Positions 213 to 26,065 of a stretch of DNA of 35,741 nt are shown piece after piece (the stretch's first letter is position 1; each line of letters begins with the position of its first letter). The position numbers and the translations under genes were made by a program. Under the pieces are notes generated by a model, which ran no database searches, had not been told where the DNA came from, and was given only the letters and a program-made list of their open reading frames with translations. This DNA comes from a virus: the IMG/VR virus record IMGVR_UViG_3300037882_002051, positions 1 to 35,741 of that record; one strand, written 5' to 3'.

Positions 213-256
213 CCGCATTCATCATTCTGGTTTCGTCATTTCGCGGCGCAGCCGCC
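213..256 (-). repeat. Hairpin + AATGACGAAACC dispersed repeat, copy 1
   Basis: On the minus strand a hairpin GCGGC-TGC-GCCGC (243-255) is followed by AATGACGAAACCAGAATG (223-240) and a GAATGATGAATG-like tail. It fills the gap between the ParB-like gene and its upstream neighbour. The same hairpin-plus-core layout recurs at 2858-2888, 22728-22758, 23215-23247 and 26901-26933; the core alone recurs at 3127-3144 and in variant form at 16671-16688. Confidence 0.85.
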
Positions 257-261
257 GCCCC

Positions 262-1029
262 TCACTCCGGCCCCTCCCAATCAGGGTCGATCTTCCGCAG
301 ATCGATCTCCTCAGGCCGGCAGTTGAACTCCCGCGCATACTGCGCTCGCAGCGCATCATCGCGCATCTGCCTCGCCCGGCGCTTCGCCTGGCCGCTCAGT
401 CCTTCGTCCTCCCGCAGCTTCGCCGGCAGCGGCGGCAGTTCATCCCCAGGGCGACGGCCATCCTTACGGCTCGTGTTCCCCTTCCGCTGCTTCGCATACG
501 CCAGCCTCGCCGAGTGACTTTTCCCACCGCTGTGGATGAACTCCGACCGGCTATACCTCGTCACCAGGTCCTCGATGATCCGCTCCACCTTATGCTGCCA
601 GTTCTGCTTCGAATGGCCGAAGAGCATCGAGATCTCCGTATCCTTCGCTCCCCACACGTGATGGCGACTCCGCACGCTCACATAAAGGTAAAGCCGCTCC
701 AGCACCGAAAGCGGATCAGGCCCATCCGCGAACAGGAAATCGAAAAACACCCGCTGAGTGCGCAGACCCGCATCCACGCACTGCTCACGAAGTCGCAGCA
801 CCTCATCCATCAGCTCTTCGTGCGAGGCCTCCGCCAGGTCTGCCACCTCCATCGGCGTGAAGTCCTGGTCGACACGTGTCGACCCTGCCCGCTCCTCCGC
901 ATCCAGCATCGCCGTCAGCGGCGTGTTCATCTCCGCCGGATCGACCACCAGAAAATCACCCTCGCGCTTCCACACGTGCGAAAGCACCCCACCCACTTGA
1001 GCCTCATACTCCTCACGCGCCCGGCTCAT
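262..1029 (-). CDS. Conserved-looking early protein, unknown function (255 aa)
   Basis: I do not recognise this protein. It is hydrophilic and has no membrane segment. The N-terminal third is acidic; the middle (about 95-165) mixes aromatic and helical segments (FFDFLFADGPDPLSVLERL, then a stretch with GHSKQNWQHKVERII that could be a helix-turn-helix). The C-terminal part from about 170 is strongly basic (GGKSHSARLAYAKQRKGN, then KRRARQMR), which suggests nucleic-acid binding. The ATG at 1029-1027 overlaps the upstream stop as ATGA, so the two genes are translationally coupled. Codons 46-50 (STRVD) are written by the palindrome at 867-884. A replication or regulatory role would fit an early operon, but nothing in the sequence proves it. 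Confidence 0.75.
   Translation of the reverse strand: MSRAREEYEAQVGGVLSHVWKREGDFLVVDPAEMNTPLTAMLDAEERAGSTRVDQDFTPMEVADLAEASHEELMDEVLRLREQCVDAGLRTQRVFFDFLFADGPDPLSVLERLYLYVSVRSRHHVWGAKDTEISMLFGHSKQNWQHKVERIIEDLVTRYSRSEFIHSGGKSHSARLAYAKQRKGNTSRKDGRRPGDELPPLPAKLREDEGLSGQAKRRARQMRDDALRAQYAREFNCRPEEIDLRKIDPDWEGPE
867..884. repeat. 18-bp perfect palindrome, copy 1 (GTCGACACGTGTCGAC core)
   Basis: GGTCGACACGTGTCGACC is its own reverse complement. It lies inside the coding sequence of the 255-aa early protein. Identical 18-mers occur at 7996-8013 and 28121-28138. Confidence 0.95.
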
Positions 1030-1424
1030 GCAGCCTCCTCCTCATCCAGCGTATGATCTCCCGCCCGATGCATCGACTGCACAAAACGCGCCCTTGTCGC
1101 CTCTGACTCGTCAATCTGGTCAATCAGGTCACCACGGTCAGAAAACCCCACCAGCATCGGCACCACCGGCACGCAGGAGGCCAGCTCCAGGCTCTCCGTC
1201 GTCACCGGCGGTGGCATCTGCTCCAGCTCCCCGATCATCCGCAGGCCGCCCAGACAGATCCTCAGCTCCGTCGCACAAGCCGCCACCGCACAAAGCTGCA
1301 GCATCAGCTCATCATACACCGGCGGCGGCGCGATGCTTCGCAGCCGCCGAGCCTCTGCCGAAGCCTTCCGCCCCGCCTCCGCGAGACGTTGCTGGCACTG
1401 AGTCAGATCCAGCGCCAGGCTCAC
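1026..1424 (-). CDS. Small helical early protein, unknown function (132 aa)
   Basis: I do not recognise a family. The protein starts at a GTG (1424-1422) that overlaps the TGA of the upstream gene as GTGA. The same frame stays open upstream to 1568, but that extension only shadows the neighbouring gene, so I use the GTG. Residues 5-35 (LTQCQQRLAEAGRKASAEAR) look like an amphipathic helix or short coiled coil. A hydrophobic core with several cysteines follows (YDELMLQLCAVAACATELRI), and the C-terminus is acidic. It may be a small oligomeric accessory factor; this is a guess from composition only. Confidence 0.65.
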   Translation of the reverse strand: MSLALDLTQCQQRLAEAGRKASAEARRLRSIAPPPVYDELMLQLCAVAACATELRICLGGLRMIGELEQMPPPVTTESLELASCVPVVPMLVGFSDRGDLIDQIDESEATRARFVQSMHRAGDHTLDEEEAA

Positions 1425-5715: not shown

Positions 5716-6138
5716 ATGCCCGGCTCAACGACTCTGAAACACCAAATGATGACTCCTGAAATCCTCCTCCACCTGCGCAAACAGCGCATGCTCACCCGTG
5801 AAGAACTCGCCAAAGAACTTGGCTGTTCCGGCTCTGCCATCGTGCAGTGGGAGGGGGGCACACGAGCCATCCCCGATTGGGTTGCTGAAAAAATGTATCG
5901 CACCATCCCCATCGAATTCACCATCGATGAACTCGCCGAGCTTTACGACATCTGCCGGGATCTCAAAGTCGGCATGCACCAGCTCGTCGCCGATGCCCTT
6001 CGCCCCATGATCCAGCAGCGCATTCGAGAGCGTGAACTCAAAGCTCACCCCCCGCTAAAATACACCACCGGCCCCGGCGGTGCTCACCTCGAAAGCGCCG
6101 TCGCTGAAGAGCACGACAAAGACAACAACCAGCCTTGA
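5716..6138 (+). CDS. HTH (XRE-like) phage repressor candidate (140 aa)
   Basis: Residues 12-62 form an XRE/Cro-CI type helix-turn-helix: LRKQRMLTREELAKELGC, then SGSAIVQWEGGTRAIPDW, with the usual recognition-helix W and following G. Residues 70-110 are helical (TIDELAELYDICRDLKVGMH) and could be a dimerisation part. The tail (115-140) is polar and disordered-looking. No Ser/Lys LexA-type protease domain is present, so induction would not follow the lambda CI self-cleavage route. It is one of only two rightward genes, diverges from the early operon across the operator repeats and is followed by an intrinsic terminator. The place and fold fit a lysogeny repressor; a Cro-like or other regulator is the alternative. 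Confidence 0.8.
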   Translation: MPGSTTLKHQMMTPEILLHLRKQRMLTREELAKELGCSGSAIVQWEGGTRAIPDWVAEKMYRTIPIEFTIDELAELYDICRDLKVGMHQLVADALRPMIQQRIRERELKAHPPLKYTTGPGGAHLESAVAEEHDKDNNQP

Positions 6139-6179
6139 GCTCCGTCACTAAGGTCACTCCGGTCAATCTCGTCACCCAA

Positions 6180-6205
6180 AGCCCGCTCCATGAGCGGGCT
6201 TTTTT
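6180..6205 (+). terminator. Intrinsic terminator of the repressor transcript
   Basis: A perfect 9-bp stem AGCCCGCTC / GAGCGGGCT with a 3-nt loop (CAT), followed by a run of six T (6200-6205). It lies 42 nt after the repressor stop codon. Confidence 0.9.
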
Positions 6206-6211
6206 ATACCC

Positions 6212-6260
6212 ACGCTAAAGCGTCCTGCCCGCAGTGCTTCGCTCAGCGATGCAGGCGGGG
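6212..6260 (+). repeat. CTGAGCGAAGCACTGCGGG dispersed repeat, copy 2
   Basis: The reverse complement of the element at 2202-2257: ACGCT-AA-AGCGT hairpin, then CCTGCCCGCAGTGCTTCGCT, CAGCGATGCAGGCGGGG. The end hairpin differs from copy 1 on both arms but still pairs. Nothing else is seen between the terminator and the small membrane protein. Confidence 0.8.
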
Positions 6261-6318
6261 AACAACGTGCTTTTTCGAGCGGCCTTTGCTTTTTCCACTT
6301 CTGTGCTTGGATGGCTCC

Positions 6319-6507
6319 ATGAAAGCGCTGCTTTACATCATGCTCGGCTTCCTCATCACCTGCGCAGGCGGCTACGGTTTTTTCATGGCCCACACCAGCG
6401 GCCAGAAAGCCCTCACCTTCCTCAGCCTGTTGGCAGCCATGTCAGGCATCGTGCTTTTCTTCATCGGGCTGGCCAAGAACCACAAGGATCACACCCGCAG
6501 GCGCTAA
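6319..6507 (+). CDS. Small two-TM membrane protein (62 aa)
   Basis: A short rightward frame encoding two hydrophobic segments: LLYIMLGFLITCAGGYGFFM (about 3-23) and LTFLSLLAAMSGIVLFFIGLA (about 31-52), ending in a basic tail (KNHKDHTRRR) that would stay in the cytoplasm. The clean TM-turn-TM-basic-tail pattern supports a real protein. The ribosome binding site is weak, and the frame is open further upstream through repeat sequence, so ATG 6319 is the sensible start. It sits behind the repressor, where lysogenic-conversion or superinfection-exclusion genes are common; that role is inference. Confidence 0.6.
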   Translation: MKALLYIMLGFLITCAGGYGFFMAHTSGQKALTFLSLLAAMSGIVLFFIGLAKNHKDHTRRR

Positions 6508-6515
6508 ATCCTTCG

Positions 6516-7781
6516 TCATTGATTCTCTTCGCTCCCCTTCGGGCTCCCTTCGGTCGTCTGTCTCGCTTCGCTCGGCTCAGGTTTCGTCATTCCGATCTCA
6601 AACCATCGGTCCCCATCCTCCTTCCGCAGCGGCCGCCGGTAGCTCCTCCGAATCTCCCCCTCTGAATTCCCCGCCCACTCCGCCACCTGGCCGCGACCAT
6701 GCCCCTGCGCCAGCCGATACGAGATATACGAATGCCGCATCACATCTTGCGGCCATGCCTTGATCAGCCCCTTGTCCCGCAGCAGCTTCGAGAGAAACAC
6801 ATGGTCATCCGTGATCGTCCGAAACTCGCGACCCTCTAACAGCGCTCGCACATTCGCCGGGATCGGCACAAAACGCTGTTGCATCGTCTTCATCGCCACC
6901 TTCGCCCCGATGTCCAGATAGCCCCGCTCCCAGTCCCACATGCTCTCCTCCAGCCGCTGAATCTCAAACGGCCGGCAGCCCATCCAGCACCCCGTCACCA
7001 GGTAAGGGAGCGACTTCGGCAGCTCTTTTTGCACACACGCCAAGATACGCGTCGCCAGATCCACGCTCCAAATCTCCGGCACTGAATCCGCCTCCTTCCG
7101 GCGCTTCACGATCTCCCCCGCATGCGGTTCACCCCGCAGCAGCATCCCCCATTCCCGGCACCGATTGAGAAACGTCTTCCACGTCGCCAGCCGATTGTTA
7201 AAATACCGCGCCCCCGGCTCCGAGCCATCCGCATTCAGCCTCCCAATAAACGCCTCCAGCATCCCCGCCTCCACATCACACACCGAAACCCCGCCAAAGC
7301 GCCCCACACCCGCCTGCAGCTCCTTCCGCATCCCGCCGCGATACAACACCGCGGATCGCTCATGCAGCCTCAAAAACCGCTCCACCGCCACACTCACCGC
7401 CGCCCGGTCCAGCCTCCCATGCCCCGCCTTCAGATAGCCCTCACACGCCCTCACCACATGCTGAAAGCCACCCACTCGCGTCACCAGGTCCTTGAGCTGC
7501 TCCACCACTGCCGGCAGCGACCTCGCCCCGATCACCTCCTTCAGCCCATCCAGCGCCTCCGCCTCCAGGATCGAAACCATCCGCGACCCCGCTTTCCCCG
7601 CCAGCTCACGCACCTTCGCCCTCGCCATCTTCCGCGCCCCCTCCAACGTCACCGCCGTCGTCGAGCGACCCTTCTTCGCCTCTCGCCAAGTGATCGCGAA
7701 AAAGCCATTCGAGCGCGGTTTGATCCGCGCCGTCACGCCTCCATAGGCCACGACTTCGCCCTTCGTTTCAGCGGCTCCCAT
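6516..7781 (-). CDS. int: Tyrosine-recombinase integrase (421 aa)
   Basis: Catalyses site-specific integration and excision of the phage. The N-terminal 60 residues (GGVTARIKPRSNGFFAITWR) look like an arm-type DNA-binding domain, followed by a core-binding domain (about 125-225) and the catalytic domain (235-385). Visible catalytic residues are Arg270 (GCRPFEI), a Lys in AKVAMKTM (294 or 298), Arg349-His350 (DVMRHSYISY), Trp369 (AEWAGNS) in the His/Trp position and the nucleophile Tyr381 (RRSYRRP). The usual His three residues before Arg349 is Asp346. The last residues (EPSEARQTTEGSPKGSEENQ) are written by a 39-bp repeat also found at the end of another gene. No strong Shine-Dalgarno is seen. 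It is transcribed toward the small membrane-protein gene. Confidence 0.92.
   Translation of the reverse strand: MGAAETKGEVVAYGGVTARIKPRSNGFFAITWREAKKGRSTTAVTLEGARKMARAKVRELAGKAGSRMVSILEAEALDGLKEVIGARSLPAVVEQLKDLVTRVGGFQHVVRACEGYLKAGHGRLDRAAVSVAVERFLRLHERSAVLYRGGMRKELQAGVGRFGGVSVCDVEAGMLEAFIGRLNADGSEPGARYFNNRLATWKTFLNRCREWGMLLRGEPHAGEIVKRRKEADSVPEIWSVDLATRILACVQKELPKSLPYLVTGCWMGCRPFEIQRLEESMWDWERGYLDIGAKVAMKTMQQRFVPIPANVRALLEGREFRTITDDHVFLSKLLRDKGLIKAWPQDVMRHSYISYRLAQGHGRGQVAEWAGNSEGEIRRSYRRPLRKEDGDRWFEIGMTKPEPSEARQTTEGSPKGSEENQ
6540..6578. repeat. 39-bp exact repeat, copy 2 (in 3' end of integrase gene)
   Basis: Identical to 3164-3202. It is followed by a truncated copy of the AATGACGAAACC element (GGTTTCGTCATT, 6580-6591), so two repeat families are stacked in the integrase's final codons. 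Confidence 0.95.
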
Positions 7782-7978
7782 TACCCACTTTTACACACTC
7801 AACGGAGCCAGAAAAGGACAAAAACAGCCATTTTTAGCCAAACACCATCCACCCATAAAACCCTTCATTTCCCCTGCGTAGCAGGCCATAAATGAAGAGG
7901 TGGAGGCGAGGGGAGTTGAAGGGTTCGGGATTCCTAGTGAGAAGGGTTTCGGGTGGTGATTACACACGTTTTACACAC
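7782..7978. other. Integrase upstream region; attP candidate with inverted and direct repeats
   Basis: A 197-bp gene-free stretch, less GC-rich than its surroundings. TTTTACACACTCA occurs twice in the same orientation (7789-7801 and 7969-7981), bracketing it. In the middle is a 35-nt near-symmetric inverted repeat: CTTCATTT (7863-7870), CCTGC-GTA-GCAGG (7873-7885), AAATGAAG (7890-7897). A phage attachment site normally lies next to int and carries a core flanked by arm sites, so this is the best attP candidate in the window. The crossover sequence cannot be named without the bacterial site. Confidence 0.5.
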
Positions 7979-8299
7979 TCACGCTGCAGCGGGTGGGTCG
8001 ACACGTGTCGACCTGGTGAGAGGCTGGGTGACATCGATGGCGAGGACGTCGACGGGATCGGGGCCGAAGTGGGGATGTTGGCGCGTGAGGGGTTTGTAGC
8101 CGTTCCAGCGTCGTTTGAGGATGTGGCCGCTCCCACGTTTGGGATAGGCGCGGTAGAGCCAGATCTCGTCGAACTCGCGTCCCTCGATGCGGGATCTCCA
8201 GATCGAGGCGAGGCGATACTCTTCCTTTTTCTCGCCACGCAGAATGGCGTCGTAGTATTCCCGCTTGAGGTGGAGATGTAGCACGCGGGTTTTACTCAT
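7979..8299 (-). CDS. ASCH-domain protein (106 aa)
   Basis: The N-terminal half matches the ASCH (PUA-like) pattern: a first strand LHLHLKREYYDAILRGEKKE, then EYRLASIWRSRIEGREFDEIW and a strand WLYRAYPKRGSG, and later VDVLAIDV. ASCH domains are small RNA- or nucleotide-binding beta barrels found in many phages; some members act on nucleosides or RNA. The last residues (STRVDPPAAA) come from the 18-bp palindrome at 7996-8013 and look acquired. ATG 8299 overlaps the upstream TGA by ATGA, so it ends a four-gene chain with the endolysin candidate. Confidence 0.8.
   Translation of the reverse strand: MSKTRVLHLHLKREYYDAILRGEKKEEYRLASIWRSRIEGREFDEIWLYRAYPKRGSGHILKRRWNGYKPLTRQHPHFGPDPVDVLAIDVTQPLTRSTRVDPPAAA
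7996..8013. repeat. 18-bp perfect palindrome, copy 2
   Basis: Identical to 867-884 and 28121-28138. It lies in the 3' end of the ASCH gene, next to one of the 13-bp direct repeats upstream of int. Confidence 0.95.
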
Positions 8300-8619
8300 A
8301 CCGTGAAGAGTTCAGGCTGTTTGCTTTTCTTTTGAGCCTGGAAGGCTCGCCAATCGTTGATGAGGGTCACGACGGCTTCGCGGGTGGTCAGCTCGTTTGC
8401 GCCTGCTCGGAGGGCTTGCTGGCGCTTGCCGGGAGAGAGGTCGTAGTGCGGCATGATGCCGCCGCGTGGCTGAAACCAGGATCGTTTGAGGCCGATGCTG
8501 GCGGCGAACTTGTGGAGCGCATCGAGGTCGTCGGTGGGATCGCAGCTCAGGTGCGAGACAGTGGTCCAGTTCCAGCGCCGGTTCGGGATGCAGTCCTGTT
8601 GGAAATCGACGTAGATCAT
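8296..8619 (-). CDS. DUF4031 family protein (107 aa)
   Basis: The translation follows the DUF4031 pattern from its first residue: MIYVDF at the start, HLSCDPTDDLDALHKFAASI, GLKRSWFQ and PHYDLSPGKRQQALRAGA. The family is small, of unknown function and common in phages and actinobacteria. The conserved Asp and His residues suggest a metal- or ligand-binding site, but no activity is established to my knowledge. ATG 8619 overlaps the upstream TGA (ATGA); the frame is open to 8769, but the family start supports 8619. It is coupled to the ASCH gene. Confidence 0.85.
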   Translation of the reverse strand: MIYVDFQQDCIPNRRWNWTTVSHLSCDPTDDLDALHKFAASIGLKRSWFQPRGGIMPHYDLSPGKRQQALRAGANELTTREAVVTLINDWRAFQAQKKSKQPELFTV

Positions 8620-8864
8620 GCACCTTCGTTGGTTGCGCCTGGTTCGACCATCTCCATGCGGATGCCGCAGTCGATCTGGTTGACGAGGCCCATGCTGCGG
8701 GCGCTGGAGAGCCAGCCGGCGACGAGCTGCAGGTTTTCGTCCGTTGGTGGGATCTGGAAGCGCTGGCACAACGTGCGGGCGAACATGGCTTCAGTAACGG
8801 CACAACGGCGCTCAAATGCTTCGAGCTGCTCGGCAGTGGCTTGGATGCGGAGGATCTTGTTCAT
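8616..8864 (-). CDS. Small protein, unknown function (82 aa)
   Basis: A soluble protein with a helical first half (TAEQLEAFERRCAVTEAMFA) and a mixed second half. ATG 8864 overlaps the endolysin stop (ATGA) and its own TGA overlaps the DUF4031 start. No family is recognised. The phrase SSARSMGLVNQIDCGIRMEM near the C-terminus could be a strand pair. Its place between lysis and accessory genes gives no clear role. Confidence 0.65.
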   Translation of the reverse strand: MNKILRIQATAEQLEAFERRCAVTEAMFARTLCQRFQIPPTDENLQLVAGWLSSARSMGLVNQIDCGIRMEMVEPGATNEGA

Positions 8865-9406
8865 GCGTCGGCGAGGATGTAGGGGACGGTGGTCTGGTTG
8901 GCGCGTTTGAGTTCGGACTCGATGAGGGCGAAGAAGGCGGGCCATTGAGCGGGCGGAAGGGTCTGGCAGCCGAGGGAGCTGGTGGTGGTGAAGCCGCCGC
9001 GATGGATGTTGATACCGAACCATCCGGTTTCGTAGCCAGCCTGGTCTCGCAGGACGGTGACTGCGCCTGCCTGGACGAGGGCCTTGTAACGTTGGGAGGC
9101 CGGACGGCTCAGGCCGTGGATGCCGATCTTGTAGCGCCAGACGCCGGGCTGCAGGACGGCGATGGCTTGGCGGTGAATGCTGGGATCGACGTTGCCATTG
9201 AAGGTGACGAAGGCTGATGGGCTGATGATGATCAGGGCGTCGTCGTAGATGCCGCGATCATTGGTGCCTGGTTTGCCCATCGTATCACGATAGTAACCAC
9301 GCATGCCGATGATGGCGACGGAGTCGGTGACCTTGTGTTTGTGGAGGATCTGCTCGACGGCATTGCGATCAATCCGTGGCCGGGCGGGAGGAAGCATGGG
9401 GCTCAT
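8861..9406 (-). CDS. L,D-transpeptidase-fold endolysin candidate (181 aa)
   Basis: The probable cell-wall-active lysis enzyme. The C-terminal half carries the YkuD-like signature: His135 in FGINIHRGG and, seven residues after that motif, SSLGCQ with Cys147, which would be the nucleophile, matching the HG...SxGC arrangement of L,D-transpeptidases. An upstream strand-loop (YDDALIIISPSAFVTFNGN) and WRYKIGIHGLSR complete the fold. It lies just after the lipoprotein and holin candidates. It has no signal peptide, so it would depend on a holin. If the fold call is right, the enzyme would be a peptidase or transpeptidase-like hydrolase and not a lysozyme. The start ATG 9406 is 14 nt after a TTTGACA motif. 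Confidence 0.7.
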   Translation of the reverse strand: MSPMLPPARPRIDRNAVEQILHKHKVTDSVAIIGMRGYYRDTMGKPGTNDRGIYDDALIIISPSAFVTFNGNVDPSIHRQAIAVLQPGVWRYKIGIHGLSRPASQRYKALVQAGAVTVLRDQAGYETGWFGINIHRGGFTTTSSLGCQTLPPAQWPAFFALIESELKRANQTTVPYILADA

Positions 9407-9423
9407 GCTTCGAGGCTCATGTC

Positions 9424-9458
9424 AAAAAAAACGCCCGCTCCGGTGAGGGAGCGGGCGT
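9424..9458 (-). terminator. Intrinsic terminator after the lipoprotein gene
   Basis: On the minus strand an 11-bp perfect stem ACGCCCGCTCC / GGAGCGGGCGT with a 6-nt loop (9431-9458) is followed by eight T (A-run at 9424-9431 on plus). It lies between the lipoprotein and the endolysin genes, so it would limit readthrough from the structural genes into endolysin and integrase. Confidence 0.9.
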
Positions 9459-9529
9459 TGTGAATGCTGCGGCAGCTTCGGGAGGCCGATCACACGGCCT
9501 ATGGCGTATGGTGGTGTATAAAGAAGTGG

Positions 9530-9679
9530 TTACGGCTGGACGTTCTTCGGCTGCTTGGCGTTGAGGCCGTCCAGCACGACTGGCGCGGCGGCGTTGGTGG
9601 CAGCGATGGCGGCTTTTTGCCAGTCCACCGAGCAGGCGGACAAGGAGAGGGCGAGGGCGAAGAGAGAGAGGCGTTTCAT
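9530..9679 (-). CDS. Small lipoprotein (49 aa), lysis-cassette candidate
   Basis: A classic lipoprotein signal: basic n-region (MKRLS), hydrophobic core (LFALALSLSAC) and lipobox L-S-A-Cys16. The mature part is only about 33 residues (SVDWQKAAIAATNAAAPVVL and a polar tail). Small phage lipoproteins beside holins are often outer-membrane spanins (Rz1-like), and that would fit here, but no Rz partner overlaps it. I choose ATG 9679; the frame is open to 9853 without a signal-compatible start. Confidence 0.7.
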   Translation of the reverse strand: MKRLSLFALALSLSACSVDWQKAAIAATNAAAPVVLDGLNAKQPKNVQP

Positions 9680-9833
9680 GGGGCTGAAGGAATGATGATC
9701 GAGGATTGATGATTGCTGATTGTTGAAGGGGATCAGCGGACGATGAGAGAGCGGTGTCAAAAATCGACGGGGCGAACTGCCGCTCATCGAACTTCGCCGA
9801 GGCTCAGTCGGTGAGCTCTTTGTTCGCCCATGA
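9680..9833. other. Gap between holin and lipoprotein genes
   Basis: It holds a TTTGACAC motif (9755-9760 on plus, TGTCAA), runs of GATTGATGATT-like words around 9700 and the string GAGCTCTTTGTTCG near 9812-9825, which resembles a segment of the repeat block at 22790-22860. No convincing gene is seen. Confidence 0.6.
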
Positions 9834-10259
9834 CTACGAATGCTCCTTGGCATCGAGGGCTTCGACCTTGCGCTTGGCGATGCCGGCGAGGATGGGCACG
9901 GCGGACTGGAGAACGGTCCAGCTCAGAAGGGCGACGATGGCGCTGGTGGCGAGGATGGCATCGGTGAGGTCTGCCCAGCGAAGGTAACGGAGGAGCATGG
10001 GGGAGAACATGATGCCAGCCAGGGCGCTGGTGGTGAGCTTGGCGGCCAGTTCACGATTGGTTTTGACCTGGAAGAGCATGACGCTCATGACGGCTCCACC
10101 GAGGCTGCCTGCCACGCAGATGAGCCGCAGGCGATTGTCATCGACGAGGGAGAGCGCGGTGGTGGTGGTGGGATCAGGCAGCAAAGCAGCGCAGATGGCG
10201 CTGATGATGCCGAGACCGGCGGCGAGAACGATGGCGAAGGAGGTGGAGGCGAGGGGCAT
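9834..10259 (-). CDS. Holin candidate with four TM segments (141 aa)
   Basis: A hydrophobic protein with four likely TM segments: FAIVLAAGLGIISAICAALL (8-27), LICVAGSLGGAVMSVMLFQV (47-66), LTTSALAGIMFSPMLLRYL (75-93) and AILATSAIVALLSWTVLQSA (101-120), ending in a charged tail (KRKVEALDAKEHS). Length and tail fit phage holins, and it sits directly before a small lipoprotein and the endolysin candidate. Four TMs is one or two more than the common holin classes, so a different membrane role cannot be excluded. It follows the tail fibre gene after a 40-nt gap containing a GAATGAGGAATGA-type word repeat. Confidence 0.7.
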   Translation of the reverse strand: MPLASTSFAIVLAAGLGIISAICAALLPDPTTTTALSLVDDNRLRLICVAGSLGGAVMSVMLFQVKTNRELAAKLTTSALAGIMFSPMLLRYLRWADLTDAILATSAIVALLSWTVLQSAVPILAGIAKRKVEALDAKEHS

Positions 10260-12976: not shown

Positions 12977-13318
12977 CTACAAACAGGAGCGCATGACGAG
13001 CTTCAACAGCTCCGGGGCCTCGTAGAGCTGGGGGCGGGCGTCGTAGATCATCGCATCGGCGAGGGTGTCGTCATCGGTAACCATGGGAGCGCAGGCGATG
13101 GCGAGGCCGTGGAGGGTGCAGGCGAGCTGCTCAGCGAGCACGTCATTGAGGACGAGTCGCTGATTGGCAAAGGCGGGGCTCATGGTAGCCACGGGGCTGC
13201 CAGGCACATGGGCGAGCAGCCATTCACTAGCGGCAGCATCCCAGATGGTGTGGAAGCGGATGCCGGTGGCACTGAACTCGATGGTGCCGGGGAGCTTGGA
13301 AAGGCCGGGCGTTTTCAT
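12977..13318 (-). CDS. Distal tail-region protein, unknown function (113 aa)
   Basis: A small protein with no recognised family. It has a beta-rich start (GTIEFSATGIRFHTIWDAA), a central helix (LVLNDVLAEQLACTLHGLAI) and a helical end (YEAPELLKLVMRSCL). Its TAG stop is written by a truncated TTGTAGTTCGGG repeat (12970-12984). It overlaps the upstream Erv-like gene by ATGA, so the two are coupled. Confidence 0.6.
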   Translation of the reverse strand: MKTPGLSKLPGTIEFSATGIRFHTIWDAAASEWLLAHVPGSPVATMSPAFANQRLVLNDVLAEQLACTLHGLAIACAPMVTDDDTLADAMIYDARPQLYEAPELLKLVMRSCL

Positions 13319-13635
13319 GAGGGATCATCGGCGGCGTGGAGAGGGAGGATGGGCTTGTTTTTGAGGGCGTTGATGTCGTTGTGAATGTCGTAGGCCCATT
13401 GCTGGAAGGCTTTGCGGGTGGTGATCGCCGGCGGTCGAGTGGCGAGGTGCTGCTGCCAGTTTTCGGTGCAGGCGCAGGTGCTATGAAGGGTGCCTGCGGT
13501 GAGTCCGTCTTCAAAGGCGACGAGGAAGGTCCGCAGGATGGCCTGCTCTCGATCGCTGAGAGGGCCGGGAGGAAGGCCGGCGGCGAAGGTGTGCAGGAGC
13601 TTCCAGAGGGCGTGGGCAGTAGGGGGGAGGATCAT
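13315..13635 (-). CDS. Erv1/ALR-like sulfhydryl oxidase fold candidate (106 aa)
   Basis: The spacing and residues follow the Erv/ALR flavoprotein family. Trp11 and His15 occur in ALWKLLHTFAAGLP; Cys54 and Cys56 in STCACTENW; then LATRPPAITTRKAF, Trp80 in FQQWAYDI, His85-Asn86, Asn89 and a closing LKNKP. In Erv proteins these mark the FAD pocket (W..LH..A, W...HN.VN..L.K) and a redox CxxC. Here the dithiol is CxC, a one-residue deletion. The family oxidises thiols to disulfides using O2, and its length of about 100 residues fits. The neighbouring gene encodes a nine-cysteine protein. I have not aligned it to a database. A structural tail protein that has kept or mimics the helical bundle is the alternative. 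Confidence 0.55.
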   Translation of the reverse strand: MILPPTAHALWKLLHTFAAGLPPGPLSDREQAILRTFLVAFEDGLTAGTLHSTCACTENWQQHLATRPPAITTRKAFQQWAYDIHNDINALKNKPILPLHAADDPS

Positions 13636-13647
13636 AGGGAGGGTGAG

Positions 13648-14433
13648 CTAGATTTCGATGGAGACCATGCCTTGGCCGGAGGTGATGCGTTTGCCGGGAT
13701 CAGCGACCCATTCGAGGGTGTAAACGCCGGGGGCGTTGATGTTGAGGCTGCGGTAGTTTTGGACGGTGCCGCCGCCACCGAGGGTGGTGACGGCATCCTG
13801 CCACTCGATGAGGAAGGGGCGCACTTCTCCGGCGACTTCGATGTCGAGCTGGGCTTTGAGGTAATTGGCTCCGCCAATGTTCCGCTGGTCTTGACCGACG
13901 AGGCCGGAGATGATGTTGGGGGTGCTTTGGCTGAAGGGTCCCCAGGTGCCGCCGCTCATGATGGCGGAGCTGACGGCGATGCCGGCGAGGGCGGACTGGG
14001 AGACGCCGCCGCTACCCACCCAGGAGATGGGATCGTCTTCCATGGTGCAGGGGGGCGGATTATCGCAGACCTCGGGGGCGGGGCATTCCCCGCTGCCTTC
14101 GGTGGTGCCTTCATCACAAAACTCATTGGTGGGGATGTTGAGCGGGCTGGGGGCGCTGATGGTGGTGGTGAGGGTGCAACTTTCGACGGTGGCCCCATCC
14201 TGCTTCCATTTGCGCGTCCAGGTGCCGGTGATGGTGGCGAAGTAGGCGGATTCTTGCCCGGAATCGTAGGACTGGATATTGATGCCGCAGGTCTTGGCGC
14301 TGCCGGACCATGTGGTGAGACGATAACGAACCCAGGGCCGGAAATTGCAGCACTGGGAGGGCATGCACCAAAAGGGAACGGCTGGCGGGGCCGAGTCCCC
14401 AAAGCTGAAACCTGTCAGACGACGCAAGGGCAT
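13648..14433 (-). CDS. Cysteine-rich tail-region protein (261 aa)
   Basis: A secreted-looking or virion-surface type protein with nine cysteines: Cys23, Cys28 and Cys29 near the N-terminus (FWCMPSQCCNF), single cysteines in AKTCGIN and VESCTLT, and a cluster in FCDEG, ECPAPEVCDNPPPCTM. The C-terminal half is beta-rich (AQLDIEVAGEVRPFLIEWQD and YTLEWVADPGKRITSG). No family is recognised. The cluster of cysteines in Pro/Glu-rich sequence suggests disulfides or metal binding. It is directly upstream of the Erv-like gene, making it the obvious substrate candidate if that protein is an oxidase. Confidence 0.65.
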   Translation of the reverse strand: MPLRRLTGFSFGDSAPPAVPFWCMPSQCCNFRPWVRYRLTTWSGSAKTCGINIQSYDSGQESAYFATITGTWTRKWKQDGATVESCTLTTTISAPSPLNIPTNEFCDEGTTEGSGECPAPEVCDNPPPCTMEDDPISWVGSGGVSQSALAGIAVSSAIMSGGTWGPFSQSTPNIISGLVGQDQRNIGGANYLKAQLDIEVAGEVRPFLIEWQDAVTTLGGGGTVQNYRSLNINAPGVYTLEWVADPGKRITSGQGMVSIEI

Positions 14434-14434
14434 A

Positions 14435-15022
14435 TCAATTCCGGGTGAGGGTGAGCTGCGTGGTATCGGCCGCTGTATTGCAAAGCGTGGCGGATTGGGA
14501 GCCGTTGAGCTGCGGCTGGGTGTAAACCCCGGCGGTGCATTCGATGAGCTGGTGACGCTTCACGGTCTCGGATTCCGTAGGCGCGGCGTTTTCGATGGTG
14601 ACGCTGGTGAGGCTGCGGGAGGTGAGATAACCGTGGAGATCTTTGACGATGGTGAAGGTCATCTTGAGCCAGTAAGTATGATTCCCACTGGAGGGGAAGG
14701 CGACGGCGCTGCCGATGGGGCTGAGGGGGCTGCCGCTGTAGGTGGGGACGATGCCGCCGATGCTGCCGGGGGTCATCTTGTAATCATCCCGAATGCCCCA
14801 GATGACGGTGGGATTGACGACACCGGCCGCCGTCGTGGTGGGCGTTTTGATGAGCAGGCCATTTCCACCCACAGCGCGAGCACGCTCGGTGCCTTCGATC
14901 TCGACATCAAGGCCGAGCTGCTCCGCGAGCTGCTCGACGACTTTCTTGAATTCATCCATCAAGACGACGCCCTTGCGGTCGGAGATGCGGATTTTTTTTC
15001 GCTTGGGATTGCTGAAAGCCAT
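14435..15022 (-). CDS. Tail-region protein, unknown function (195 aa)
   Basis: A protein with a basic start (MAFSNPKRKKIRISDRKG), an acidic helix (MDEFKKVVEQLAEQLGLDVE) and then a beta-rich body (NHTYWLKMTFTIVKDLHGY; TESETVKRHQLIECTAGVYT). I use ATG 15022 in place of an upstream in-frame codon at 15040, because it is the start that leaves the leader free; it follows a TTTGATC plus C-run leader. The body looks like a minor tail or baseplate component. No family is recognised. Confidence 0.6.
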   Translation of the reverse strand: MAFSNPKRKKIRISDRKGVVLMDEFKKVVEQLAEQLGLDVEIEGTERARAVGGNGLLIKTPTTTAAGVVNPTVIWGIRDDYKMTPGSIGGIVPTYSGSPLSPIGSAVAFPSSGNHTYWLKMTFTIVKDLHGYLTSRSLTSVTIENAAPTESETVKRHQLIECTAGVYTQPQLNGSQSATLCNTAADTTQLTLTRN

Positions 15023-15036
15023 GGCGGGGGGGGGGA

Positions 15037-15255
15037 TCAAAGGCGAAACTGAGCAGGCAGCGCATCCCCTTGATCGATGATGGTGAGGCCACGCACGCGT
15101 TCATTGGTTTCAGGATTGTCATCGGCGGCGCATTGAGAGGCGCTCCATTCTTCGATGGCGGTTTTCACGGCGGCATGCGTGAGGTAGGGCAGTCGGGGAT
15201 TGCCGAGCTGGCCGGTGGCATCGTTGCCGTGGATGAGATTGATGTAAGCGAACAT
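15037..15255 (-). CDS. Small tail-region protein (72 aa)
   Basis: A short soluble protein: MFAYINLIHGNDATGQLGN, then a helix (LTHAAVKTAIEEWSASQC) and RVRGLTIIDQGDALPAQFRL. It lies 3 nt from its upstream neighbour and ends just before the next start. No family is recognised; it may be a small tail accessory protein. Confidence 0.6.
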   Translation of the reverse strand: MFAYINLIHGNDATGQLGNPRLPYLTHAAVKTAIEEWSASQCAADDNPETNERVRGLTIIDQGDALPAQFRL

Positions 15256-15258
15256 GGT

Positions 15259-16662
15259 TTATTCTCCGGGGGTGGTATCACGCTGATGACCGATGACGAC
15301 GCTGGTGAGGTAGAGCGGCTGACCTGGGAGCTGCTTCGAGTTCACATTCATGAGCCTCCAGCCAGCGGGAAAGTGGATGGTGTCAGCGCTACCGTAGAGG
15401 CCGATGGTGCTGACGGCCGGGGCATTGGTAGGAATCCACAAGGTGCCGTTGCCGAGCATCCAGGTGGGAGGCGGCTGGGTGGAGACATAGGTGAGCGTAA
15501 GAGCCGTCTGCGGCAGATCGAAATCGACCTTGCCGTCCAGCGAGGCCGTGTTGGTGGTGGTCTGCTGAAGCTCATCATCCTTCTCTCCATACATGACGGG
15601 GCTGATGATGATGGCGGCCGTGAAATCCCCAATGCTCAAAGCCTGCGCGGTGGCGCTGATTTGTCGATCGACGGGCTTGCTGGTGCCTTTGGCGAAGTCG
15701 AGGCCCTGGAACTGGAGATCGAGGTGATAGTATCCGGTGAGGCCGAGGGCTTCCGCCTCCTCACATCCGCGTGCGGCGGTGTGATTGAGTTCCGTGATCC
15801 ACATGAGCTCCATGCCCTTCATGATGGGCCGCAGGGTGCCGCCGGTGCCATCGCTACTAATGGGAAGGAGCGGAACGAGGGTGCTGTAGCCATAGATGTC
15901 GCTGGTGAAATCAATGGCGGCTCCACCGAGCGTGGCGGCGAGCTTCAGTGTGTTCGTGGTGGCATCTCGAACGTAATAGGTCGTGAAGGTGCTCAGGCCT
16001 GCGCCGCCTTTGAGGATGGGGCAGATGACGGGTGTGCCATCGGCCTGCCCGTGGGCATTGCTGGTAATGACATCGGTGCCATGGACGCCGGTGATGTATT
16101 TGGTGCTGGCGGGATCGGCGATGCGGAAGGTATCCGCCCCGGTGCGATGGATGAGATACTTTGTGCCACTGACTGCGCCACCAAAGCCGCTCTCAAATTC
16201 CAAGATGCCGAGCTGGCCGCTGACGAGGCCATGCGTGACGCAGGTGAAGGTCTCATCATCGGCCTCCGCGCTGACGGTGAGCGCGGCTTTTTCCAATTGC
16301 GCTCCACGCTGCCACTTCGCGTCGAGTGGATCATCGGTGTAAACGCCTAGCGCCGTGGTATCCCATCCCACCGAGGGCAGGGCGTGCTGGCGGCCGAGGA
16401 TGAGGTAAGGGGAGTCATCGGCGATGCCTTCGCAATCGAGTCGGATGTCGTAGGCGACATCCGGGATCTCTTCGTCGGGATCAATGCCCACGATGCGCAT
16501 GCGCGGCCAATCGGGCGGGGCTTCACCGAGTTTGAACTGAACCCTCGAAGGGGCCTGCCAGCGCTGTTTGAGGGTATGCACCTCCTGCGAGCGCATGGCG
16601 GGCACATCGGGGGCGGAGCGGAAGAGGACTTCGCCGTAGAGCTGAGTTTCGGTGTAGGGCAT
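15259..16662 (-). CDS. Minor tail protein with two 'HGL' beta repeats (467 aa)
   Basis: A structural protein between the tape measure and distal tail genes, so likely a distal-tail or baseplate component. Residues 138-185 and 195-260 contain two copies of a repeat common in phage virion proteins: TCVTHGLVSGQ, then KYLIHRTGADTFRIAD, and SNAHGQADGTP, then TTYYVRDATTNTLKLA. The same repeat occurs in the putative tail tube protein at 21965-22657. The C-terminal region (GYYHLDLQFQGLDFAKGTSK and later SVVIGHQRD) is beta-rich. ATG 16662 has a C-rich leader and no Shine-Dalgarno. Confidence 0.7.
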   Translation of the reverse strand: MPYTETQLYGEVLFRSAPDVPAMRSQEVHTLKQRWQAPSRVQFKLGEAPPDWPRMRIVGIDPDEEIPDVAYDIRLDCEGIADDSPYLILGRQHALPSVGWDTTALGVYTDDPLDAKWQRGAQLEKAALTVSAEADDETFTCVTHGLVSGQLGILEFESGFGGAVSGTKYLIHRTGADTFRIADPASTKYITGVHGTDVITSNAHGQADGTPVICPILKGGAGLSTFTTYYVRDATTNTLKLAATLGGAAIDFTSDIYGYSTLVPLLPISSDGTGGTLRPIMKGMELMWITELNHTAARGCEEAEALGLTGYYHLDLQFQGLDFAKGTSKPVDRQISATAQALSIGDFTAAIIISPVMYGEKDDELQQTTTNTASLDGKVDFDLPQTALTLTYVSTQPPPTWMLGNGTLWIPTNAPAVSTIGLYGSADTIHFPAGWRLMNVNSKQLPGQPLYLTSVVIGHQRDTTPGE

Positions 16663-16705: not shown

Positions 16706-18547
16706 TCAGCCCACGAGGAAGTTCAGGGCATCTCGCATTTGCATGAAGATCTCGATCTCTTTGGTGCCGAGATTGACGGTGGAGGAGGCTTTGGCGGAGG
16801 CGGCGTCCTGCTTGGCGGCGTTGGTGGTTTGCAGGGCGGAGACAGGAGCCATGCCGCGCTGCTGGAGCTGCTGCCACTGGCCTGCGCCGCGCTGGAGCAT
16901 CTCCCAATCACTGGCGGTCTGCTGATTGCGGAAGTGCTGGTCGAGTCCGCCCATCATACGAGCCTTTCCAGCTCGCTGAGAGGGATGCGTCCAGCCTGCC
17001 TGCCGATCCGCTTCGGTGAACATCCGGGCCTTGGTGCTGCGCTTCCCATCGCCATCCATTCCCATGGCGGCTCGCATGGCATCGCGCTGGCGGGCGAGCA
17101 TGAGGCTCTGCTGCTCGCTGTAGCCGGTGGCCTGCTGGATCTGCAAGGCCTCGCGGGCGATGCGGAGGCGGCGTTCCTCGATCTCGGCCATGTTTTCTTT
17201 GCCAGCGGCGCGAAGCTGGTCGATGCGGATCTCCGCGGCGAGTTCGTTTTTGGCGCGGTTTTGAGCGGCCTGCTCTTTGTCCGTGCGCTCCTGCTCGGTC
17301 TTCATCTGCTCAAGCTGGCGGGCGATGGCCTCGGCCTCTTGCTTGCGTTTGGCCTGCGCTTGCGTGGCCATGTTGTCGGAGAGCTGTTTGATCTGCTGCT
17401 GCAGCTCCAGGGCCTTTTTGTATTCCTCAACGGGCGCGGCGTGCTTGGCACCGGCAGCGAGGCCCGCGAGATCGGACACGCCATTGATGGCAGTGCCCGT
17501 GTGCCGCACACGAGCGGCCGCGAGCACATCTTCGAGCTTGCTCTTGAGGGCAGCCAGGCGCTGCGCATCCGGCAGCATGCTCTCCGCGATGCCAGCGGCT
17601 TCGGTTTTGAGATCGCGGAGCTTGGCCGCGGTTTCTTGAGCGGCCTTCGGATCGGTGACCTCAAGGCCAGAGAGTCGGCTCTTGGCGGTGGCGTCCTGTG
17701 CGAGGCGTGCTCTGACTTCATCGGGGAGATCCATGCCCTGGAGGCGCTGAATCTCGCGTTGCAGCTCAAGCTGGCGCTGGAGGCTGGCTGCGGCTTTGTC
17801 TTGGCCGCCAGCCTTCAGCTCCGCGATGCGTAGCTCTTTGGCGGACATATCGAGCAGGGCCTGCTGGATGGATGCGAGGGCATTGGCCTTTTGCACGGCG
17901 AGGGCATTGGCGGCTGTCTCACGATCCGATACGGACGGGCCTCCGAACAAGGCCGTGATGCGTGCCATGATGCCGCTGGCTCCGCTGTTGAGGCCTTCGA
18001 TCTCTTTGTAAGCACTGCTGACGCCACCTTTCACCTCGGCAAAGAAAGCAGCGATCTCCGTGGAGGAACCCGCGAGGCTGGCCTTCATGCGAGTGCCAAA
18101 GGAATCCGCATCGGCCTTCATGGCTTCGAAGGCTTCTTTGGATTTTTCAGCCATGGTGTAGAAGGCACCGCCGATGGCGAGCACGCCACCGAGGACGGCT
18201 CCACCCGTGCCAAAGGCACCGAGGATCTGCGAGCCCTGCTGAGCGAGCACGATGCTAGCCTTTGTGCCCATCTGCAACTGAACGGCAATGTCCTGCGCCT
18301 GCATGGCGACGCCACCGAGCTGGATGCCACGGGAGGCACCGCGAAGGTTGTTCATCTCACGGGTAAAGGAGGCCATGTTGGCCTTGTGGCGGCCCCAGGT
18401 CTCATCGCTGCCGAGGATCACTTTGGAGATGCCACCTCCGCTACTGAGACCATCGCGGAACTTCTGCGCCTCAGCTTTTGCCTTGGCGAGCTGCTGCTGA
18501 TACTGGGCGATCTCCAGCCTGAGAGAGGCTTCGATGGAATTGCTCAT
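16706..18547 (-). CDS. Tape measure protein (613 aa)
   Basis: Sets tail length and is ejected with the DNA. The N-terminus (IEASLRLEIAQYQQQLAKAK) starts a long helical region. Residues about 70-130 hold the motif common to lambda-like tape measures (AQDIAVQLQMGTKASIVLAQ, then QGSQILGAFGTGGAVLGGVL) with a hydrophobic stretch. Residues 250-480 are charged coiled coil (QIKQLSDNMATQAQAKRKQE). ATG 18547 overlaps the upstream TGA (ATGA); the frame is open to 18637, but that part shadows the neighbour. At roughly 1.5 angstrom per residue this length predicts a tail near 90 nm, an inference from other siphoviruses. Confidence 0.9.
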   Translation of the reverse strand: MSNSIEASLRLEIAQYQQQLAKAKAEAQKFRDGLSSGGGISKVILGSDETWGRHKANMASFTREMNNLRGASRGIQLGGVAMQAQDIAVQLQMGTKASIVLAQQGSQILGAFGTGGAVLGGVLAIGGAFYTMAEKSKEAFEAMKADADSFGTRMKASLAGSSTEIAAFFAEVKGGVSSAYKEIEGLNSGASGIMARITALFGGPSVSDRETAANALAVQKANALASIQQALLDMSAKELRIAELKAGGQDKAAASLQRQLELQREIQRLQGMDLPDEVRARLAQDATAKSRLSGLEVTDPKAAQETAAKLRDLKTEAAGIAESMLPDAQRLAALKSKLEDVLAAARVRHTGTAINGVSDLAGLAAGAKHAAPVEEYKKALELQQQIKQLSDNMATQAQAKRKQEAEAIARQLEQMKTEQERTDKEQAAQNRAKNELAAEIRIDQLRAAGKENMAEIEERRLRIAREALQIQQATGYSEQQSLMLARQRDAMRAAMGMDGDGKRSTKARMFTEADRQAGWTHPSQRAGKARMMGGLDQHFRNQQTASDWEMLQRGAGQWQQLQQRGMAPVSALQTTNAAKQDAASAKASSTVNLGTKEIEIFMQMRDALNFLVG

Positions 18548-19308
18548 GATTTTTTCATGCCGCTGCCGGCGGCGATTTTTTCGAGGTAGTTCTCCCAGTT
18601 CTTCTGCATGCGATCCGCGCGGATCTGCATGGCCCATTGAATGCGGCGCTGGATGTCCTTCACTTGGCGAGCGTAAGCGACCTCATTGGTCATCGTGATC
18701 TCAATGGCTCCGGTGCTGATATCCACCTTGAGGCGGCCGGGCGCATCATGCTTGCTGGTGCCGTAGGGCAGTCCTTTCACACCCAGGGCGTTGAGGGCAT
18801 CCTGCCAGCCCGAGGCAAGCCACCAGATATTCTCCTGTTCCATCTGGATATACAGCTCCAGCTCCTTGGGATCAGAAACGAAGAAGCGGAAATTGCGAGC
18901 ACGACGCCGGAAGTTTTTCCGATGATGAACTCCGGCGTCAAAGGGAGCGATGATGCTACCCGTGGTGCTGCGGAGGAGATCGGAGGCCTCGCGGATCTCG
19001 CCGCGTTTGTAGTAACCCCAGAAGGCATCCGCCTGGCCGTCGTGCTGCGGAAGCAGGTCGTAGGCTTCCCCCGGCGTGCCATAGAGGCTGCGAATATCCG
19101 CTGCCACTTTGGTTTTGGCGTGCGTTTCAGCGGAGCGGCCCGTGGTGCCCGCATGTGCAGGCGGCGTGTAAGCCGCGACGTTTTTAAAGACGATACGAGC
19201 TTCTGATTTGAGCACTTCCACCGCCGCCCGTTTGCTGGTCATGAGCACACGCTGCAAAGCTGCTTCGTGGGCAGTGGAGCGAACGTGGAAGCCATCGGTG
19301 AGAGACAT
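18544..19308 (-). CDS. Tail protein between chaperone and tape measure (254 aa)
   Basis: Unrecognised. It is basic and helical: SKRAAVEVLKSEARIVFKNV at the start, a central KNFRRRARNFRFFVSDPKEL, and a C-terminal KDIQRRIQWAMQIRADRMQK. The phrase GGRL-like KVDISTGAIEITMTNEVAYA near residue 200 resembles the 'minor tail protein/HK97 gp10' style strand pair that ends in a YA.. motif. It sits where lambda has no gene (between GT and H), so it may be a tail completion or terminator protein displaced from the usual place. ATG 19308 follows a TTTGACAC motif at the upstream stop. Confidence 0.6.
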   Translation of the reverse strand: MSLTDGFHVRSTAHEAALQRVLMTSKRAAVEVLKSEARIVFKNVAAYTPPAHAGTTGRSAETHAKTKVAADIRSLYGTPGEAYDLLPQHDGQADAFWGYYKRGEIREASDLLRSTTGSIIAPFDAGVHHRKNFRRRARNFRFFVSDPKELELYIQMEQENIWWLASGWQDALNALGVKGLPYGTSKHDAPGRLKVDISTGAIEITMTNEVAYARQVKDIQRRIQWAMQIRADRMQKNWENYLEKIAAGSGMKKS

Positions 19309-25150: not shown

Positions 25151-26065
25151 TTAGGACTCGACGCTGTCGGTGTTGAGGATGGAATCGGTGACGATGATCG
25201 GGATGCCATCGATCTCAGTAGGCAGATCGGGGTAAACGTTTTCTGGCGTGCTGCGGCTCTTGCGGAGCTGCGTGCGGGAACGTTTGCTCATGAACCACAC
25301 ATCGGGCTTCATCCCAATCGGAAGCAGGTCGAGCGCATCGCCCACTAGCACATCGGTGAGGCCTTTACCGCTTTGGGCGGTGAGGTTGCAGATGCGCAGG
25401 ACGCTGGCCTTGTGGGCGATCTGGAGACCGATCCAGCCTTCGAGGTCCGCCACACGGCCGGGGACGGGTTTGTTGTTGTTGCCAGTGATGTCCTGGTCGC
25501 GGAAATCACCAAGCATCATCGGATCAGTGAGGCCGTGAACGAGGCGGGCGTATTCATCGCCAAACTTCACGCCATAGACGGAGCTGGCGGTGCCATCCGT
25601 GGTGCCGGTGGCGTTATAGGTGTAGGCTCCACCAAAGGGGGTGAAGGCCTTCAGGCCAGGGAAGCCATCAGCTTCATTGGCCACGCCGTAGAAGATCTGG
25701 GAGCCAAGCTCCAGGATGGCGGCGAGGGCCGTGCCTTTGGTGGCACGGGCTTCAATGGCAGCCATGCCACCGCTATCGGCCTGGCCAGCCGCTTTTTCAG
25801 CCTCGGCACGACCGGCGAAGAGGTAGCACTTGAATTCGCGCTCCTCCCAGCGGCCTTTGGAGGCGCTGACGCCATCGCCAAGCTTGCGGAAGCCGACGGA
25901 GGGCAGCTCGACGAGGAAGTTCGAGCGGTAGGTGAGGCCCGAGTCCAAGCGGTAGATCGGGAACTGGCCCACTTCAGGAGCCTGCTGGGTGATTTCAGAG
26001 ATGACGCCGCCGAGAACCAGATGAGGTTCCATGGCGTCGATGAGGGTGTAGCGTCCGGTGGGCAT
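25151..26065 (-). CDS. Major capsid protein (304 aa)
   Basis: Forms the capsid shell (HK97-fold, by position and pattern). The N-terminus (YTLIDAMEPHLVLGGVISEI) is helical; residues 60-115 contain FRKLGDGVSASKGRWEEREF, and the region 175-215 SSVYGVKFGDEYARLVHGLT. The C-terminal quarter has the usual end of such coat proteins: PDVWFMSKRSRTQLRKSRST, then PTEIDGIPIIVTDSILNTDS, with a final short tail. Its size fits, and it lies between the scaffold-like and decoration-like genes. Confidence 0.88.
   Translation of the reverse strand: MPTGRYTLIDAMEPHLVLGGVISEITQQAPEVGQFPIYRLDSGLTYRSNFLVELPSVGFRKLGDGVSASKGRWEEREFKCYLFAGRAEAEKAAGQADSGGMAAIEARATKGTALAAILELGSQIFYGVANEADGFPGLKAFTPFGGAYTYNATGTTDGTASSVYGVKFGDEYARLVHGLTDPMMLGDFRDQDITGNNNKPVPGRVADLEGWIGLQIAHKASVLRICNLTAQSGKGLTDVLVGDALDLLPIGMKPDVWFMSKRSRTQLRKSRSTPENVYPDLPTEIDGIPIIVTDSILNTDSVES

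Follow-up and report, generated by a model that had tools for sequence, protein, structure and literature searches.

Does a tailed phage encode its own thiol oxidase of the Erv/ALR type, and does that enzyme act on the cysteine-rich tail-region protein encoded next to it? The question is raised by two adjacent genes in a 35,741-nucleotide stretch of viral DNA (IMG/VR record IMGVR_UViG_3300037882_002051, positions 1 to 35,741), hereafter referred to as the window. An earlier note, made without database searches, had claimed that a 106-aa protein keeps the Erv/ALR signature order but has CxC in place of CxxC, that its upstream neighbour is a tail-region protein with nine cysteines, and that the pair could be a phage disulfide-maturation module.

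Results

The Erv/ALR-like gene lies in the tail-region operon of a tailed-phage contig

The window is a tailed-phage contig in which Pfam recognises terminase gpA, a portal, an S49 protease and a GP7-like capsid protein. The genes relevant to this work are:

30382-32610, terminase gpA (Pfam)
28151-29731, portal (Pfam)
27162-28067, S49 protease (Pfam)
25151-26065, GP7-like capsid protein (Pfam)
16706-18637, minus strand, candidate tape-measure protein, 643 aa (weak PHROG tape-measure matches, 0.0027 and 0.012, plus position)
15259-16662, minus strand, tail-region protein, 467 aa, one stretch of which resembles a PHROG tail-fibre family
15037-15255, minus strand, small gene, 72 aa, function unknown, in the operon of the oxidase
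14435-15040, minus strand, 201-aa gene, function unknown, preceding the 261-aa gene in the same operon
13648-14433, minus strand, 261-aa gene with nine cysteines, proposed substrate, upstream of the oxidase in transcription
13315-13635, minus strand, ALR/Erv-like protein, 106 aa, CxC variant, single domain (Pfam, PDB phmmer, AF2 model)
12977-13318, minus strand, 113-aa gene, function unknown, downstream of the oxidase

Since the tape-measure candidate lies upstream of the oxidase gene, the tail-region label is right, albeit with weak PHROG support; the 467-aa protein matched phrog_9370 at 2.3e-08 and phrog_4711 at 2.1e-09. The claim of an upstream neighbour with nine cysteines (261 aa) also held. 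The oxidase start is found 12 nt past the stop of the 261-aa gene, and its own stop is overlapped by 4 nt (ATGA) by the 113-aa gene, with which it is likely to be translationally coupled.

Elsewhere in the window, an ORF at 6516-7781 (minus strand) was read by us as integrase-like, a reading backed by a 35%-identical ORF in the relative L035. The GC skew of the plus strand flips sign beside this gene, at about 8 kb (window positions 6000-10000), and the integrase-like gene and the structural genes share the minus strand despite the flip. Among isolated phages, the top match of the portal was Akkermansia phage Moulinsart (26%, 1e-29), which hints at a possible Verrucomicrobiota host.

The 106-aa protein is an Erv/ALR homolog of the CxC type

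The 106-aa ORF carries W11, L14, H15, C54-A-C56, T73-R74, W80, H85-N86, N89 and K94-P95, with C54 and C56 being its only cysteines. Its signature positions map to the window as follows:

13591-13605, minus strand, codons of W11 to H15, the equivalent of Trp95 to His99 of yeast Erv1
13468-13476, minus strand, codons of the CxC pair C54-A55-C56, which opens helix 3
13352-13398, minus strand, W-x4-HNxIN-x4-KP motif (W80, H85, N86, N89, K94, P95)

The protein matched the Pfam family Evr1_Alr at 5.8e-12 (46.3 bits, with a cut-off of 27.6 bits) and ALR chains in PDB at 8e-8 (phmmer). Because of these two matches, the resemblance to Erv/ALR is not due to chance. The W-x4-HNxIN-x4-KP motif occurs once in the window, with 0 occurrences expected by chance. 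Thus, the claimed signature order with CxC held: all named residues are present and the Pfam match is above the cut-off.

Residues of the FAD site were compared with those of yeast Erv1, where Trp95 and Trp183 hold FAD and Arg92 and Trp183 contribute to its binding (PMC4721541). The core residues Trp95, His162 and Lys171 are present as W11, H85 and K94, and C56 aligns with the FAD-proximal cysteine of ALR/Erv1. The equivalents of Arg92 and Trp183 are absent, their places being taken by H8 (hand alignment) and by Ser, the last residue (106). The exact CxxC spacing has been termed the molecular signature (PMC10598087). The window protein, which has CAC instead, does not meet it, and we therefore class it as an Erv/ALR homolog of the CxC type rather than as a canonical member. 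Reading by eye, without a predictor, revealed no signal peptide in the window protein or in those neighbours that were inspected.

In AlphaFold, the protein modelled without an alignment had four helices (pLDDT 65). Confidence rose to pLDDT 86.4 and pTM 0.78 once the window protein was aligned with 46 relatives from IMG/VR (47 rows in all, see below). Its helices span residues 7-19, 28-48, 56-66, 74-91 and 99-103, i.e. a four-helix bundle with a short fifth helix, and the cysteine pair opens the third helix, as in Erv. The top PDB fold matches were all ALR/Erv (Foldseek 8e-5). Erv1 was matched with Z 13.5 over 99 residues at 2.8 A, while the first non-Erv chain scored Z 6.4. In BFVD, the named sulfhydryl oxidase matches came from giant and related eukaryotic viruses. 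The window protein is thus predicted by the model to adopt the Erv-type four-helix bundle; a structure prediction with no such bundle would, according to the earlier note, have refuted the assignment.

CxC is the rule in a family of phage relatives

No relatives were retrieved from IMG/VR or GTDB genomes with the oxidase as a single-sequence query, nor by scans in which the terminase or either of two neighbouring proteins served as query; a second scan of genome contigs also came back empty. IMG/VR was scanned with a codon pattern for W-x4-HNx[VI]N-x4-KP. At least 120 stretches were matched, and the family was found to be encoded in 77 of the 80 loci fetched. Evr1_Alr was matched by every one of 47 aligned relatives at E 0.01 or better, and no other family was matched. 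A DNA pattern starting TGGA gave three matches that were judged to be chance, and a match in L027 from an alignment-based scan was rejected, as it sits in a portal-like ORF of a record without an Evr1_Alr match.

Since the search pattern fixed W80, H85, N86, N89, K94 and P95, conservation of these residues is no evidence. Outside the pattern, a close cysteine pair is present in 76 of 77 relatives, W...H (W11, H15) is kept in all 76 relatives covering that stretch, and the Trp183 equivalent, eleven residues past the KP proline, is found in 72 of 77. Homologs without conservation at these positions would, according to the earlier note, have refuted the assignment; the C, W and H positions that the pattern left free are conserved. 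Seventy of the 77 relatives carry CxC (variants include CPC, CDC and CSC), six carry CxxC and one (L093) has a longer spacing. With 70 of 77 relatives of this type, CxC is the rule in the phage family and not an oddity of the window protein, which corrects the earlier view of it as a departure from the family's CxxC.

In a phylogenetic tree the window protein, the longest branch, grouped with three eukaryotic sequences and two CxxC phage members. Its placement inside the phage CxC clade was not rejected by the AU test (p 0.31). Given the long branch and the alternative that is not rejected, membership of that clade remains possible but unresolved.

Twelve loci (L039, L041, L052, L059, L065, L083, L098, L103, L108, L109, L115 and L118) form a long-type group with ORFs of about 200-320 aa, mostly with CPC. 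A 425-465 aa ATP-grasp-like protein precedes the long-type gene in L041, L052, L098, L108, L109, L115 and L118; the L041 copy lacks a Pfam identification that would back this reading. In nine other phage loci (L043, L045, L068, L096, L099 and L078, L092, L105, L117) the ALR-like domain continues at its C-terminus into a glycosyltransferase-like domain, of which there are two kinds. One kind is GT8-like, with a DEVLFVDADC-type motif, and its Pfam match in L068 (4e-4) is below the cut-off; the second kind is unassigned. In L055 a calcineurin-like phosphoesterase gene (217-1221, minus strand) lies directly downstream of the ALR gene, and ORFs of similar length come after ALR genes in related loci.

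An Evr1_Alr match was found in none of 20 portal relatives of the window phage, many of them fragmentary records, and the oxidase gene is therefore not universal in the lineage. One of these relatives, L036, has no ALR gene and encodes a 14-Cys tail-region protein in the same slot, followed by a small six-Cys CxxC protein with a CPxGxW end (14539-14808, plus strand; phrog_13558, unknown function). In L086 a cysteine-rich gene, an ALR gene and a protein with a phrog_13558-type motif (near 4294, minus strand) are consecutive. Possibly, the small CxxC CPxGxW protein is an alternative to, or a helper for, the oxidase in its job. The structural genes of portal relatives also include an ATP-dependent DNA ligase-like ORF (L034, 11434-12180, plus strand) and glycosyltransferase/methyltransferase-like ORFs (L034, 8445-9758; L036, 7093-8379).

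The gene directly upstream of the oxidase is usually cysteine-rich

The 261-aa neighbour in the window has cysteines at positions 23, 28, 29, 49, 86, 106, 117, 123 and 129 (3.45%), which makes it second in cysteine share among the 23 listed window genes of at least 150 aa, with one richer. It matched no family in Pfam or PHROG, and no homology was detectable to the L036 14-Cys protein or to other cysteine-rich neighbours.

For 70 loci the available DNA reached far enough upstream to assess the neighbour. In 55 of them the ORF immediately ahead of the oxidase contained at least 4% cysteine, compared to 56 of 658 other same-strand ORFs, and the median over all 70 upstream neighbours was 7.3% against a background of 1.3%. 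In relatives, the cysteine-rich neighbours contain 13-48 cysteines each and often start with clusters, e.g. MSCFGKCGCGCC or MAWKKCCC. These statistics rest on mechanical ORFs and include related loci; a count at the level of clusters is safer. Clustering yielded 17 mutually unrelated neighbour groups, of which 10 were cysteine-rich, a count for which the background rate gives a binomial p of about 2e-7. Because these 10 groups are unrelated, the cysteine-rich neighbours are not one family inherited by descent. The association of the oxidase with cysteine-rich neighbours is thus shown at the family level. The window's own neighbour is a mild, weak and unrelated case of it.

In the largest neighbour family (23 non-redundant members, mean identity 27.5%) cysteines were conserved pairwise at 81% and other residues at no more than 38%, the former figure being somewhat inflated as the aligner favours Cys-Cys matches. 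Such cysteine-dominated conservation is as expected of a disulfide scaffold, an inference from sequence alone. None of the cysteine-rich neighbours tested had a match in Pfam. A PHROG tape-measure protein is encoded three genes ahead of the cysteine-rich gene in L055, L114 and L045, an order similar to that of the window module. Fifteen of the 70 loci have no cysteine-rich upstream gene, and 12 of these are the long-type group, with other neighbours. L093, the relative with the unusual cysteine spacing, encodes a 46-Cys protein directly downstream of the oxidase.

The claim of a disulfide-maturation module is thus strongly supported through the relatives (55 of 70 loci, 10 unrelated neighbour families), with activity, flavin and substrate inferred. 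The window pair as an example of it needs correction, its nine-cysteine neighbour being weak and having no detectable homology to the 13-48-Cys proteins.

The family is absent from the reference collections searched

Four oxidase seeds (the window protein, L070, L065 and L069) gave no credible match in INPHARED (50,697 phage records), and neither did the L055 cysteine-rich protein. A match to Brevundimonas phage Bajun (E 0.3) is spurious, as it crosses stop codons, and one to Fowlmouth (E 0.6) was taken as chance. No model recognising the phage oxidase family was found in PHROGs or NCBIfam, and no paper on phage Erv/ALR proteins was found in the open-access literature searched. What is new is the phage CxC oxidase family and its pairing with cysteine-rich tail-region proteins.

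Discussion

On balance, we favour, by a modest margin, the reading that the phage encodes an FAD/O2 thiol oxidase whose task is to cross-link, within the reducing cytoplasm, a tail-region protein rich in cysteines; the flavin, activity and substrate of this enzyme are inferred. In this view, the 13315-13635 product would be a minimal phage thiol oxidase homologous to Erv/ALR and expressed with the tail genes. Its four-helix bundle would bind FAD, and the cysteine-rich tail-region protein encoded next to it (here the 261-aa protein) would pass electrons from its thiol pairs straight to the CxC pair. FAD would hand the electrons to O2, giving H2O2, and disulfides would form in the reducing cytoplasm during tail assembly, producing a rigid or protease-resistant tail part. 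As the oxidase has no shuttle cysteines, it probably oxidises its substrate directly, with the flavin reoxidised by oxygen, and the lack of a visible signal peptide makes cytoplasmic action likely.

What has been shown is homology, the fold as modelled, conservation of active-site positions and, across the family, an association with cysteine-rich neighbours. Flavin binding, activity, direct transfer, the identity of the substrate and its being part of the virion are inferred in the absence of biochemical data. The window pair alone makes a moderate case. That the 261-aa protein is the substrate in this pair could as well be wrong as right, and we rate the substrate claim higher at the level of the family.

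Several observations speak against this reading. With neither an Arg92 nor a Trp183 equivalent, and with the longest branch in the tree, the window protein could be weakened or repurposed. Its pair is CxC and not the canonical CxxC, and its neighbour has only nine cysteines and no detectable homology to other neighbours. Among the relatives, 12 of the 15 loci lacking a cysteine-rich upstream gene fall into the one long-type group, and the L036 14-Cys protein occurs without an ALR gene.

An active Erv/ALR-like thiol oxidase might have its main target elsewhere, in other tail proteins or in host thiols (redox takeover, H2O2 production). The 12-locus long-type group without a cysteine-rich gene directly upstream and the merely mild cysteine content of the window neighbour are in favour of this alternative. 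We consider it unlikely, given that 10 of 17 unrelated neighbour families are cysteine-rich and that the oxidase sits in the tail module adjoining cysteine-rich genes. It is likewise unlikely that the fold has taken on a role without enzymatic activity, as an assembly chaperone or a structural piece, with catalysis lost in the window copy. The missing Arg92 and Trp183 equivalents, the very long branch and CxC in place of CxxC would fit such a loss. However, the cysteine pair, W11, H15, W80, H85, N86, N89 and K94 are all kept in the window copy, and active-site positions and the Trp183 equivalent are conserved in relatives independently of the search pattern.

Proteins rich in cysteine often bind metal when they are made in a reducing cytoplasm. 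The neighbours could accordingly bind Zn, Fe or Fe-S, with the ALR-like protein serving cysteine homeostasis and not disulfide formation. The small CxxC protein (phrog_13558) in the same slot in L036, and its motif after the ALR gene in L086, can be cited in support. This explanation appears very unlikely: no cysteine-rich neighbour tested matched Pfam, a single protein contains up to 48 cysteines, and pairing with an oxidase is the opposite of what metal-thiolate sites need.

Returning to the thiol oxidase reading, the closest known system is Erv1/ALR (PF04777; rat and human ALR, yeast Erv1 and Erv2, Arabidopsis Erv1), with which the window protein shares the profile match and the bundle of four helices plus a short fifth. 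Also common to both are W...H in helix 1, the cysteine pair that opens helix 3 and W....HN..N plus K in helix 4. The window protein differs in having CxC and only two cysteines, hence no shuttle or structural disulfides, in a 6-residue insert ahead of the cysteine pair, in the absent Arg92 and Trp183 equivalents, and in its occurrence in phages. Large DNA viruses of the cytoplasm have conserved Erv-type enzymes (PMC10598087), and the sulfhydryl oxidases of large eukaryotic DNA viruses follow the same logic as the proposed phage system (PMC10598087, PMC3509050). Those of ASFV (pB119L) and mimivirus (R596) matched the fold with Z 13.4 and 11.8. The oxidases of nucleocytoplasmic large DNA viruses are likewise viral, with proposed cytoplasmic action on virion proteins, and are the closest named BFVD structures. 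In contrast to the phage proteins, they belong to eukaryotic viruses and have CxxC, while the phage gene lies in a tail module directly after the gene of a cysteine-rich protein.

QSOX combines thioredoxin and Erv domains, and its Erv domain can be aligned (Z about 6, profile 2e-5). The 106-aa window protein has no thioredoxin domain, Evr1_Alr being the sole domain found, and in some phage relatives the fusion partner is instead a glycosyltransferase-like domain. In bacteria, disulfides are formed by the DsbA/DsbB and VKOR systems. These have other folds and are periplasmic, and no match to them was found in this analysis.

A bolder reading, towards which we lean only slightly, is that a widespread and unannotated phage group has its own cytoplasmic disulfide-bond system. 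A CxC Erv/ALR oxidase would be translated right after a disulfide-armoured tail-region protein, a prokaryotic counterpart of the giant-virus pathway. If this is true, tailed phages would possess an oxygen-using enzyme of their own with which to build structural disulfides in the reducing cytoplasm of bacteria, and the range of Erv/ALR chemistry, so far eukaryotes and the large viruses that infect them, would extend to phages. It would also explain the extremely cysteine-rich tail-region proteins that are unnamed in the family libraries searched, and would supply minimal two-cysteine CxC oxidases, together with their cognate substrates, to enzymology and to the production of disulfide-bonded proteins in bacteria.
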